DNA from: a virus
Length of the DNA stretch: 32,068 nt
IMG/VR virus record: IMGVR_UViG_3300045963_000138
Location: 1 to 32,068 of that record
Direction: 5' to 3' (one strand)
Shown here: in pieces, positions 15,869 through 25,930 of the stretch
Numbering within the stretch: the stretch's first letter is position 1
How the letters are laid out: each line of letters starts with the position of its first letter
Notes under the pieces: generated by a model
Seen by the model: only the letters and a program-made list of their open reading frames with translations
Databases searched by the model: none
Told to the model about the DNA's origin: nothing
Program-made: the position numbers and the translations under genes

Positions 15869-16099
15869 TCAAGCACTATTTGCACGGCTTTCATCTTCGA
15901 CCCAATCGGCCTGCCCCACAAATTCCCGCGCCCTGGCTGCAGTCGGTGGCCTGGCTGGCTTGCGCTCCGGTCGCGGCTTGACTAGCCCCGCAAGACGGGC
16001 GCAGCGCGGCCCCCATGCCACCGTTCGGCCCTTGCTGTCGGTCAGCACGGGGGTGGATGGCCTGGGCAGCATCGGGCGCCCGCAGCGGCAGCAGATCAC
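15869..16099 (-). CDS. Small zinc-ribbon-like protein
   Basis: A 76-residue protein with GTG start overlapping the methyltransferase stop as GTGA. It begins with CCRCGRPM, a Cys-x-x-Cys knuckle, and has a second cysteine at RCARLAG. The remainder is arginine and proline-rich (KPRPERKPARPPTAARAR). It could bind nucleic acid or partner the methyltransferase that it is translationally coupled to. No family assigned. Confidence 0.6.
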   Translation of the reverse strand: MICCRCGRPMLPRPSTPVLTDSKGRTVAWGPRCARLAGLVKPRPERKPARPPTAARAREFVGQADWVEDESRANSA

Positions 16100-16995
16100 G
16101 GCATCCCCTTTGCTGCCTTCACGAACATGGCCGCGACTTGCGGGACGATGGCATTGCCGTAACCCCGCAGGCGTCCCACTCGGGCGGGTAGCCCATGAGC
16201 CAGCGGGAATGTGCCGGGTTCAACTGGCCGCCACTTTCCATCCCGGCAGGCAAGCCAGTCAGCAGCTCGCCAGAAGCTGTCAGTCGGGCCGGCTGCATGT
16301 GCATCGTGATGCTGGTCAGCGTATGCCCCCGCGTCCCGCGCGCAATCGCCCCCTCGCCGCCCGACGAGTTCCCGTCCTGCCTTAGTGGCGTCGGCCAGCC
16401 GGACAACACCGCCACCTCGTTCAGCGGTCGGGCGTTCGTTCCCCATCGCTCCAGCGTTGAGCCCTTCCAGTCCCGTGCCGCTGGTGTCGGCCAGGCCGAC
16501 ACCACACCAGTAGAGACGCTGCCTGATGTGCGGGGCGCCGACGCCCGCAGCGCACAGATCCGCAGCCCCGAAGGCGTAGCCCGCTGCTTCCAGGTCAGCG
16601 CGTACAAGGTCGAGCCACACGAGGCCGTCAGCGCTTGCAACCTGTTCGCCAAAGACGCTTGTAGGTTTGCGCTGCTCAATGAGGTGGAAGAAGGCTGGCC
16701 ATAAGTGCCGCTCGTCAGCCGTCCCGAGGCCTTTGCCTGCCGCGCTGAAAGGTTGGCAAGGGCAGGAGCCGGTCCAAACAGGTCGAGCGTCGTCCCATCC
16801 AGCCAGTCGCAGGGCATATGACCATCCGCCGATGCCGGCGAAGAAATGGCATTGGCTGAATCCGTCCAGGTCTCGCGGGCAGACATCCTCGATGCTCCTT
16901 GTGTCGACTTCACCGTCAGCGATGTGGCCGGCCTTGATGAGTTCGCGCAGCCATGCGGCGGCGCGCGGGTCGAATTCGCTGTAGTACGCGGTCAT
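16096..16995 (-). CDS. dcm: C5 cytosine DNA methyltransferase
   Basis: A 299-residue enzyme transferring methyl from S-adenosylmethionine to carbon 5 of cytosine. Motif I is FAGIGG (52-57), the catalytic Pro-Cys of motif IV is in [12 protein letters not shown] (Cys80), motif VI reads FGEQVAS with Glu117 (the usual ENV form is replaced by GEQV, as in a subfamily common in betaproteobacterial phages), motif VIII is HIRQRLYW and motif X is [10 protein letters not shown] start at ATG 16995 by the TGATG junction. The target-recognition region is short and glycine-rich with repeated LAD(T/A) units. It may protect phage DNA from host restriction. A second long frame lies inside it. Confidence 0.9.
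16119..16886 (-). CDS. Overlapping +1-frame protein inside the methyltransferase gene (WPTP / [11 protein letters not shown] family)
   Basis: A 255-residue frame lies wholly inside the C5 methyltransferase gene in the +1 frame. Its ATG at 16886 has an AAGGAG ribosome site 8 bases upstream, so independent initiation is plausible. Segments such as [53 protein letters not shown] and [18 protein letters not shown] recur, from memory, in many phage and environmental proteins of unknown function. The WPTP units are exactly the shifted reading of the methyltransferase LADT units. It could be real dual coding, or a frame kept open by the conserved methyltransferase sequence and high GC. Confidence 0.55.
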
Positions 16996-17183
16996 CACGG
17001 CATCCCCGCAGCGATGCGCCTGGCCAGCTCGGCGTCGTACTGAATGCGCCATGATCGATAGCTAACGCTGGGGCTCTTGCCATACCCCACAAGCCCGGCG
17101 CCGGCGCAGCGCCACGTGATCAGTGCGCGATGGTTCCCGGTAGCTGGGTGGTGAAAGTAGCGGGTGATGTGTGGCTTTGTCAT
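16995..17183 (-). CDS. Small hypothetical protein
   Basis: A 62-residue basic protein (MTKPHITRYFHHPATGNH at the start; SYRSWRIQYDAELARRIAAG near the end). ATG 17183 makes an ATGA overlap with the upstream gene, and its stop makes TGATG with the methyltransferase. The content of His, Arg and Tyr suggests nucleic-acid contact, but no family is recognised. Confidence 0.6.
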   Translation of the reverse strand: MTKPHITRYFHHPATGNHRALITWRCAGAGLVGYGKSPSVSYRSWRIQYDAELARRIAAGMP

Positions 17184-21470: not shown

Positions 21471-21688
21471 GCCGCCCGCACAAACTGCAAATCAAGATGC
21501 TTGAGTCTGTCCGCCCGATCACATACGCGGGCGGCAAGCAAGGAATGGAAATCGAGATCATCTGTGGCGAGCAGCAGCAGCGCGAAATTGCGCTGGACAT
21601 GATTGGCCGCATGGGATCGGAAGAGGCGTATCAATGGGCCAGGGCTGAATTTCCGGAATGGTTCAAAGCAGAGGAGAAAACAGCATGA
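21467..21688 (+). CDS. Small hypothetical protein
   Basis: A 73-residue protein (MSRPHKLQIKMLESVRPITY) with ATGA junctions at both ends. It has beta character at 20-35 (GKQGMEIEIICGEQQQRE) and a helical C-terminus ending EWFKAEEKTA. No family recognised. Confidence 0.6.
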   Translation: MSRPHKLQIKMLESVRPITYAGGKQGMEIEIICGEQQQREIALDMIGRMGSEEAYQWARAEFPEWFKAEEKTA

Positions 21689-22905
21689 GCAACGCTACCA
21701 GAGAAGCGCCGAACTGCGCGCTAGCCGAATACTCGCCCACTGCCGCCGCCCTGGCCGATCTGCGCCAGCGCTTTTCCGGCGTGGTGTGGGATGTGACCAC
21801 TACCAAGGGCAACAACGAGGCGCGTGCCGCCCGGCTCGAACTCGTGAAACTGCGCACCAGCCTGGAGGCCAAGCGCAAGGAGTTGAAGGCGCCGGCCCTG
21901 GAGCGCTCGCGCCTGATCGACGCCGAGGCGGCGCGCATTACCGGAGAGATAATCGCGCTTGAGAAGCCCATCGACGAGCAGATCAAGGCCGACGAATCCC
22001 GACGCGAAGCCGAGCGCGAGGCCAAGCGCCAAGCGGAAGCGCGCCGGGTGCAGGCCATTGCCGACAAGATCAACGCCATCCGCGCGCTGGCCATGCTGCC
22101 GGCCGGCACGAAGGCTGCAGACATCGCTGCCTGCATCGAGCATGCCCAGGGCTTGGAGCTGTTCCAGGCCGACTTCGAGGAGCAGCTACCGACGGCCGAG
22201 TGCGCCCGGTCCGAGGTGTTTGGCAAGCTGCAAACGCTGTACACAGCCGCCGTCGAACATGAGTCGGAACAGGCCCGGCTTGCGGCCGAGCGCGCCGAAC
22301 TGGCCCGACTGCGCGCCGAGCAGCAGGAGCGCGAGCGCATCGCCGCCAAAGCCGCCCGGGCGGAGCAGGCCCGCATCGCCGCCGAGCAGCAGGCCGAGCG
22401 CGACCGGCTGGCCGCTGAGCGCCGGCAGATCGAGGTGGCGGCGCAGGCCGAGCGCGAGCGTGTGTCAGCGCTGGAGGCAGAGCAGCGCCGGAAGCAGTTG
22501 GCAGCAGAGGCCGAGCAGCGCCGAGCCGCCCAGGCGTTGGCCGATGAGCGGGCAGAGTTCGAGCGCCGGCGGGCAGATGCCGCCGCCGCCGAGCAGCAGC
22601 GTGCGAAGGATGCCAAGGACGCCGAAGATGCCCGCTGCCTCGCGCTGGTGCTGGCCGAGCAAGCAGCCATTGCACCGGCACCGCCCCCCATGCAGCCAGT
22701 GCCGCCAGCCGCCGACGAGCCGGCAACGCTCAAGCTTGGCGACATCAACGACAGGCTTGCGCCGATCAGCCTGAGCGCTGCCGGCCTGGCAGAGCTTGGC
22801 ATCGTGCACAGAGCCACCGACAAGGCCGCCCGGCTGTACCGGCCGAGCGACTTCCGGCGTATATGTGCGGCGCTGGTGAAGCACATCGAATGGGTTGCAT
22901 CATGA
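21685..22905 (+). CDS. Long coiled-coil protein of the recombination region
   Basis: A 406-residue protein from ATG 21685, with GAGGAG upstream and an ATGA junction. The N-terminal domain (LADLRQRFSGVVWDVTTTKG, then ARLELVKLRTSLEAKRKEL) has the plan of phage proteins coded upstream of RecT/Bet-type annealing proteins. Residues 120-330 are a highly charged Ala/Glu/Arg coiled coil with repeated AAERAELARLRAEQQERERI-type units. The C-terminus has a separate domain (LKLGDINDRLAPISLSAAGL). It probably oligomerises and may organise recombination or replication proteins. The antisense frame here is a composition artefact. Confidence 0.72.
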   Translation: MSNATREAPNCALAEYSPTAAALADLRQRFSGVVWDVTTTKGNNEARAARLELVKLRTSLEAKRKELKAPALERSRLIDAEAARITGEIIALEKPIDEQIKADESRREAEREAKRQAEARRVQAIADKINAIRALAMLPAGTKAADIAACIEHAQGLELFQADFEEQLPTAECARSEVFGKLQTLYTAAVEHESEQARLAAERAELARLRAEQQERERIAAKAARAEQARIAAEQQAERDRLAAERRQIEVAAQAERERVSALEAEQRRKQLAAEAEQRRAAQALADERAEFERRRADAAAAEQQRAKDAKDAEDARCLALVLAEQAAIAPAPPPMQPVPPAADEPATLKLGDINDRLAPISLSAAGLAELGIVHRATDKAARLYRPSDFRRICAALVKHIEWVAS

Positions 22906-24560: not shown

Positions 24561-24772
24561 GCACTGAAGAACATCCCCAATTGCCTGAGATTGGATTCGT
24601 CGGGTCGTATGGATATGAGCGGGCCGACCTGATCGCATACGGCAAAGCGTACGCAGCGCAGGAAGTGGCGAAGGAGCGAGAGGCCTGCGCCAAGCTCGTC
24701 GAAAAGATGTGCTCTGGAAAATGGGTGACAGTCGACAAGATGGCGGAAGCAATCCGCTCCCGCACCGCTTGA
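24557..24772 (+). CDS. Small hypothetical protein
   Basis: A 71-residue protein (MSTEEHPQLPEIGFVGSYGY) with a helical second half (KAYAAQEVAKEREACAKLVE then a short WVTVDKMAEAIRSR). The EREACAKL-x-E pattern is frequent at the C-termini of phage accessory proteins. Its stop overlaps the -35 box of the next promoter. Confidence 0.6.
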   Translation: MSTEEHPQLPEIGFVGSYGYERADLIAYGKAYAAQEVAKEREACAKLVEKMCSGKWVTVDKMAEAIRSRTA

Positions 24773-24797
24773 CATTGCCACATCAATAGCGCATCAT
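24769..24797 (+). promoter_or_regulatory. Promoter in front of the RHH/recT genes
   Basis: A perfect TTGACA at 24769-24774 and CATCAT at 24792-24797 with a 17-base spacer. The -10 box ends 6 bases before ATG 24804, so the RNA would start at the ATG (leaderless). No ribosome site precedes that ATG. Confidence 0.6.
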
Positions 24798-24803
24798 TGG
24801 CAC

Positions 24804-24950
24804 ATGGCAACAAAGCAAACAGAGCGGCAAAACGTGTGGCTTCTCAAGATCCACATGGCCGCATTTCGCGCCTTGTCAATGATGACAGGGGTTCCGACTG
24901 TGAAATTGATCCGCCGCGCGATGGCTGAATTCTTGGAGCGCAACAAGTGA
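24804..24950 (+). CDS. Ribbon-helix-helix regulator upstream of recT
   Basis: A 48-residue protein: MATKQTERQNVWLLKIHMAA, then FRALSMMTGVPTVKLIRRAM and AEFLERNK. This is a strand plus two helices, the Arc-like ribbon-helix-helix plan. It ends in a GTGA overlap with recT, so it is translationally coupled to it. It has its own TTGACA promoter and no ribosome site. It may regulate the recombination genes or its own promoter. Confidence 0.68.
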   Translation: MATKQTERQNVWLLKIHMAAFRALSMMTGVPTVKLIRRAMAEFLERNK

Positions 24951-25930
24951 GCCAAATTGCAGTTATTGAAGGTGACATATATGGCGTCAGAGCGCAGTTT
25001 GAATCTGTCGCAGGCCCATCACTGAAGTTCGAGGCTGAAGCACGCTTCGCCATGCAGGCAATCACTGCTAGCGACTATGCCATGGGCATTGCGATGAGCA
25101 ATCGCCAGAGCGTCATCAACGCTGTTGCGAATATCGCCGCAATCGGCATCAGCCTGAACCCTGCGAAGAAGCAGGCATACCTAGTGCCGCGAGATGGCCG
25201 CATCTGCTTGGACATCAGCTACATGGGCTTGATGGATCTTGCGATGCAGGCCGGCTCGATCCGATGGGGGCAGTGCAAAGTAGTACACGCGGCCGATACA
25301 TTCGAGCTGGACGGACTGGACAAGCAGCCGACGCACAGGTATCAGCCATTTTCCAAGGATCGCGGCGATGCCGTCGGCGTGTACTGTGTCGTCAAGACGG
25401 GTGACGGCGACTACCTGACACACGCGATGAGCATCGAGGACGTGCATTCCATCCGTGATCGATCAAGCGCATGGAAGGCATGGATCGCAAAAAAGAAGTC
25501 GTGCCCATGGGTTACCGATGAAGGGGAAATGATCAAAAAAACCTGCATCAAGCAGGCATACAAATACTGGCCGCGCGTCGAGCAATCGAAGCTGGAAACC
25601 GCAATCCACTACCTTAACACCGAGGCCGGCGAAGGAATACCGCTGGATGATGACAAGCCAAAGAGCCGGCCGGCTGGCGGCAAGCAGGCCGGGCAAGATG
25701 CGCTCTCTGAGATGAGCACCGAGGATCAGAGCATCCTGCGAGAGTTGGCCGCTGAAGCTGTCGAGTCGTTCAAAGAATACGGCATCGGCCCGGCCTTCGA
25801 TTTCATCCGCGCCCAGGCTCTCGACGTCGACCAGACGGTTGCCTTCTGGTCAATGCTGCCGAGCGATTTCAGGTCAGCGCTGAAGAAGGAAAAGGCGGCG
25901 CGCGATGAGGCCGCAAAGGTGGTTGCGTGA
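24947..25930 (+). CDS. recT: RecT-family single-strand annealing protein
   Basis: A 327-residue annealing recombinase with GTG start (GTGA junction). The central region has the RecT core: [40 protein letters not shown] and [13 protein letters not shown], then [11 protein letters not shown] and the helical [19 protein letters not shown]. It anneals complementary strands after 5' resection. The C-terminal 80 residues are charged and variable. No partner 5'-3' exonuclease is visible in the window. Confidence 0.92.

Follow-up and report, generated by a model that had tools for sequence, protein, structure and literature searches.

The window, by which we mean the whole stretch of 32,068 bases analysed, is a phage record, in which PHROG matches revealed portal, large terminase, NinG, DnaC-type loader and O-like replication genes. 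On its minus strand lies a C5 cytosine methyltransferase ORF (16096–17052) with a probable start at ATG 16995, where homologues begin; GTG 16998 and ATG 17052 are alternative starts. Inside this gene and in its +1 frame, ATG 16886 opens a second frame of 255 codons plus stop, which would be extended by 9 codons if GTG 16913 served as the start. The original prediction had described this frame and the AAGGAG in front of it, and both proved to be real. The same holds for its statement that the LADT units of the methyltransferase and the WPTP units of the +1 product are identical DNA read in two frames; a LADA unit in frame 0 belongs to the same pattern. The features of the locus are compiled in Table 1.

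Elsewhere in the window, two long antiparallel open frames were observed at 21658–22905 (plus strand, 415 codons) and 21663–22886 (minus strand, 407 codons). The former has matches among PHROG families of unknown function (phrog_16469, E 1.8e-41); the latter probably owes its length to the composition of Ala/Glu/Arg-rich coding.

Table 1. Features of the nested methyltransferase locus in the window; motif names follow established C5 methyltransferase usage.
Feature	Position	Strand	Basis or remark
Predicted large (catalytic) subunit, C5 cytosine methyltransferase, frame 0	16096..16995	-	299 aa; PF00145 E 3.2e-12, phrog_363 E 3.9e-84
Predicted small (target-recognition / motif IX) subunit, +1 frame	16119..16886	-	255 aa; phrog_1008, open in relatives, fourfold-site constraint
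AAGGAG, probable ribosome-binding site of +1 frame	16895..16900	-	8 nt before ATG 16886
Motif I FAGIGG, frame 0	16825..16842	-	conserved in frame-0 protein alignment
Motif IV PCQPFS, catalytic Cys, frame 0	16744..16761	-	conserved in frame-0 protein alignment
Conserved frame-0 motif between motif IV and LADT linker	16507..16530	-	frame-0 protein alignment
Frame-0 LADT linker / +1 WPTP units of putative recognition part	16276..16506	-	AF2 pLDDT; frame-0 codon periodicity lost
First WPTP unit, +1 residues 132-135	16482..16493	-	paired by hhalign with LPTP in single-chain enzymes
Second WPTP unit, +1 residues 164-167; LADA in frame 0	16386..16397	-	sequence, profile alignment
Motif IX-like segment, +1 residues 222-238	16173..16223	-	conservation, hhalign to RLAAAFPEWMMGWPAGWV, lowest fourfold divergence (0.083)
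Motif X GYGNAI, frame 0	16147..16164	-	conserved in frame-0 protein alignment

In the frame-0 product, motifs I, IV (PCQ), VI, VIII and X, which are expected of a C5 methyltransferase (PF00145), are all conserved; motif IX does not occur within this chain, and a target-recognition domain appears to be missing from it as well. The AF2 model of the protein is confident for residues 1–173, comprising motifs I–VIII, falls mostly below a pLDDT of 50 at residues 174–235 and is of higher confidence again at motif X. Its fold matched that of M.HhaI over about 167 columns. Judged from this model, the LADT linker is probably disordered. A search for the motif IX pattern in 321 family loci revealed its presence in the +1 frame of 313 loci and in frame 0 of none (0/321).

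The +1 product matched phrog_1008 with residues 6–245 (E 3.6e-37), and the same PHROG family matches the C-terminal half (residues 249–407, E 4e-49) of the single-chain enzyme Yorick gp69 as well as Goose gp79 (E 2e-88). Comparison of the +1 profile with single-chain enzymes by hhalign gave an E-value of 3.3e-6 and a probability of 87.9, not near 100, and paired WPTP with LPTP and the motif IX-like segment with RLAAAFPEWMMGWPAGWV. As hhalign and phrog_1008 both match this half of the single-chain enzymes, the +1 frame most likely supplies the portion that is missing from the frame-0 enzyme, namely target recognition and motif IX, and its product is comparable to the small subunit of M.EcoHK31I; the assignment of motif IX is based on profile match and position. 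This supports the claim of the original prediction that the overlap covers the target-recognition part of the methyltransferase. As the +1 similarity near motif IV comes partly from frame-0 conservation, only four lines of evidence were given weight: motif IX, PTP units, fourfold-site divergence and codon choice. In a diverged family, designated family B and retrieved with the frame-0 sequence of Salmonella phage ABTNLsp11242 as query, motif IX was located by pattern in the +1 frame of 50/80 loci. Inspection by eye placed it there in 29 of the 30 others, the last one being cut short, and it never occurred in frame 0. Single-chain enzymes carry motif IX in frame 0 in 23/30 cases.

Several members of family B (L389, L393-L397, L402, L406 and others) possess a recognition segment without PTP units, of the GIAWCRARTGDHRHNLED type, before the same motif IX. 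These sequences suggest that the family swaps recognition modules within the +1 frame.

An alternative reading is that the +1 product is translated and has a separate function outside the methyltransferase, for example as an accessory or anti-host protein. This would agree with the lack of a family for it in Pfam and NCBIfam and with an AF2 model unlike known folds, although the +1 chain modelled alone was poor (pLDDT 60.9, pTM 0.32) and the missing PDB match at E up to 0.001 thus refers to a model of low confidence. Nothing matched when the +1 profile and motif IX peptides were compared with the sequences of solved structures. We nevertheless regard a separate function as improbable, in view of the match to single-chain C5 enzymes over their recognition and motif IX half, the absence of the motif IX pattern from frame 0 and the strict association of the two genes: all 243 ORFs found with the +1 profile lie over a methyltransferase in the same relative frame (243/243 in 241 loci, i.e. 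80 + 80 viral and 80 bacterial loci plus the window, not deduplicated and with some contigs occurring twice). The original prediction had likened segments of the product to standalone proteins of unknown function; none of these 243 ORFs, which come from viral and bacterial contigs, stands alone.

The start of the +1 frame left its mark on codon choice in the methyltransferase. In the alignment of the +1 start, Asp is encoded by GAT, from which the ATG arises, in 203/239 distinct loci vs 2504/6145 Asp codons gene-wide. Upstream of it, Arg is encoded by AGG, which gives rise to the ribosome site, in 95/259 loci vs 688/8558 Arg codons gene-wide. An ATG was present at this site in 196/259 loci; the remaining 63/259 need another start, and an upstream in-frame ATG is visible by eye in some of them. 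In family B, where the +1 ATG starts 4 nt past the first base of the main start, Asn2 is encoded by AAT in 58/58 cases vs 295/580 over the ORFs. Apparently, codon choice keeps the +1 ATG and the putative ribosome site, and both look real. Such biased codons speak against the idea that ribosomal frameshifting after motif VIII produces a fused I–VIII–TRD–IX protein in place of a chain with its own start. A fusion of this kind would place the motifs in the order normal for such enzymes, and there are single-chain relatives such as Yorick gp69, but the product would be without motif X, which stays in frame 0. We assign this mechanism only a slight chance.

The +1 ORF overlapped the methyltransferase in the identical relative frame in 80/80 of the first viral loci, which had been found with the +1 protein. 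It was also present in 80/80 further loci fetched by a frame-0 profile, a procedure which avoids selecting on the +1 frame. Only 5 stops in 72,213 +1 codons were counted, affecting 4 loci, in those 283/321 family loci in which the frame-0 landmarks were found (they were not found in 38). Between motifs IV and X, 4 stops were observed vs 789.5 expected from synonymous-codon shuffles (302/321 family loci). Family B showed 1 observed stop vs 192.7 expected in the same interval (75/80 loci), and 1 stop in the +1 frame vs 1051 in the +2 frame (70/80 loci scored). As single-chain Yorick-type enzymes used as controls gave 127 observed +1 stops vs 149.0 expected (20/30 loci), an open +1 frame is not general to C5 methyltransferases. 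Shuffling of the window's own gene yielded a mean of 3.5 stops and a stop-free +1 frame in 0.3% of shuffles; here the shuffled region was the open overlap itself, for which zero observed stops are given by construction, and the later counts use frame-0 landmarks instead. The open +1 frame in the methyltransferase is not due to chance.

Three of the four family loci with +1 stops carry an HNH-like insert. An HNH-endonuclease-like ORF follows directly after motif IX in the +1 frame of L049 (1899-3395), L158 (3149-3640) and L239 (5751-6179), while frame 0 is open throughout the insert to motif X. PF01844 exceeded its curated cut-off only in L158 (E 9.9e-5; 0.0032 in L049 and 0.0054 in L239). The insert may be a homing element targeting the most constrained site of the overlap. 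L297 has +1 stops ahead of the conserved part, so that a later start would be needed; its recognition segment and motif IX are intact.

Divergence at fourfold sites was determined for 83 pairs with 65–96% amino-acid identity, each locus being used once. The proportion of differing frame-0 fourfold sites was 439/1080 (0.406) before the overlap and 652/1701 (0.383) from the +1 start to motif IV, fell to 562/3188 (0.176) in motifs IV–VIII and 371/2107 (0.176) in the variable region, reached its lowest value of all regions at the +1 motif IX (137/1656, 0.083), and rose again to 155/554 (0.280) from motif X to the +1 stop and 71/195 (0.364) beyond the +1 stop. The difference between the sites before the overlap and those at motif IX is highly significant (Fisher p 2.8e-91, with codons not fully independent). 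Family B showed a divergence of 0.267 in motifs IV–VIII vs 0.028 before motif X; in contrast, no dip was found in the single-chain controls (0.185 in motifs IV–VIII vs 0.336 before motif X). The +1 stretch preceding motif IV is nearly unconstrained (0.383), and its first ~40 residues may therefore matter little.

In the variable region, codon periodicity was shifted as well. Frame-0 codon positions 1/2/3 change at rates of 0.360/0.239/0.291, compared to 0.115/0.081/0.367 before the overlap, and position 1, which changes most, is the third position of the +1 codons. The proteins diverge in this region by 0.370 (+1) vs 0.438 (frame 0). These results support selection on both frames over most of the overlap. 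The synonymous-site constraint for which the original prediction had proposed a test was found, and the +1 stops in relatives that it had named as evidence against itself are nearly absent. A chance open frame might have been suspected at a local GC content of about 0.63, as an isolated open frame as long as this one is no rarity in GC-rich sequence, with the +1 homology carried over from frame-0 conservation as it partly is near motif IV; the stop counts, the fourfold-site constraint and the shifted periodicity refute this reading. A constraint on the DNA or RNA itself, such as a structure or binding site, would also reduce fourfold divergence, but it is hardly credible here, as the peak of variability shifts to what is the third position in +1 codons and stops are nearly absent only in the +1 frame.

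We have shown here that both frames are conserved, that the methyltransferase motifs are divided between them and that the +1 product matches the recognition and motif IX half of single-chain enzymes. From these sequence comparisons, one C5 methyltransferase is very probably made as two polypeptides from a single stretch of DNA, with the gene of the specificity subunit nested in that of the catalytic subunit. Translation of frame 0 would yield the large subunit with the AdoMet-binding and catalytic motifs I–VIII, a flexible linker and motif X. Translation of the +1 frame from ATG 16886 behind AAGGAG would yield the small subunit, consisting of a helix-plus-hairpin region, the WPTP recognition segment and motif IX. 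We infer that the two subunits associate into an active enzyme, in which the small subunit would select the DNA sequence and the large subunit would transfer the methyl group. The dual-coding locus of the original prediction is hence retained in so far as both frames are under selection, but the second protein, instead of being unrelated, is most likely a part of the same methyltransferase.

Full nesting with motif X in frame 0 was identified in phages of Paenibacillus (Leyra), Bacteroides (BS-TP4), Mycobacterium (Rhynn), Acinetobacter and Salmonella, and also in N15, epsilon15, BcepC6B and K1H. The nested arrangement spans phages of Proteobacteria, Firmicutes, Bacteroides and Mycobacterium. 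Some phage records (Leyra, K1H, PhiXhv-5) have both genes annotated, whereas the main frame alone is annotated in N15, epsilon15 and BcepC6B; unannotated +1 subunit genes were located in these three at 24740-25465 (N15, L335), 16085-17128 (epsilon15, L337) and 1150-2139 (BcepC6B, L338). Two methyltransferase-type features under the match were present in 7/60 records among the matches listed. The two products of the window fall into phrog_363 and phrog_1008, both labelled DNA methyltransferase, and hmmscan output gives no sign that the two families are one DNA stretch read in two frames. No description of the overlap in phages was found in the open-licence PMC papers searched. Annotation usually shows such nested phage methyltransferases as one gene, and anyone producing the enzyme from a synthetic gene recoded for the annotated frame alone would lose the recognition subunit.

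The phage enzymes can be arranged in a series. Yorick gp69 of a Mycobacterium phage has all parts in one frame. In Goose, gp80 contains motifs I–VIII, and the PTP units and motifs IX and X are encoded by gp79, a partly overlapping gene in the +1 frame; the fully nested genes form the third type. The overlap may have originated by two compensating frameshifts flanking the recognition and motif IX segment of a single-chain ancestor. Whether the nested genes represent a widespread class of phage C5 methyltransferases with an out-of-frame specificity subunit, which arose from such a pair of frameshifts and left frame 0 as a tolerated linker, appears to us an evenly balanced question. If so, a change of the recognition module would leave the catalytic subunit untouched except for its linker, and this would account for the persistence of a long overlap across distant phages. 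The series from single chain over partial split to full overlap is also a rare case in which the origin of a long overlap is traceable and testable.

Among known enzymes, those of the Yorick type show the same order of parts (I–VIII, PTP units, EWMMGWP motif IX, X), but in one frame and with a +1 frame full of stops. For M.AquI (CYCGRG), a published account assigns the catalytic motifs to one polypeptide and recognition together with motif IX to the other (PMC3404938). M.AquI resembles Goose gp80/gp79 and the window in the separation of catalysis from recognition and motif IX. It differs from the window in that motif X is part of the small subunit in M.AquI and Goose and of the large one (frame 0) in the window, which sets the window apart from the AquI type. 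Moreover, the genes overlap little in M.AquI and Goose, partially in the latter, whereas nearly the whole small gene is overlapped in the window.

The closest parallel is M.EcoHK31I (YGGCCR), part of a restriction-modification system, which is likened here to the window by its published description. Its small gene reportedly lies inside the large gene in another frame (Lee, Kam and Shaw, NAR, 1995), as does the small gene of the window. The account cited above for M.AquI describes M.EcoHK31I as two polypeptides with motifs I–VIII and X in the large one and motif IX alone in the smaller one, and it places the predicted recognition domain in the large subunit (PMC3404938). The distribution of the motifs is the same in the window. 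The recognition segment of the window probably lies in the other chain, since it reads best in the +1 frame: the low-confidence frame-0 linker in the model and the homology of the PTP units in the +1 frame argue for the small chain. By this comparison of descriptions, the window locus is probably of the same kind as M.EcoHK31I, and an enzyme known as one biochemically described oddity appears to represent a class that is common among phage enzymes.
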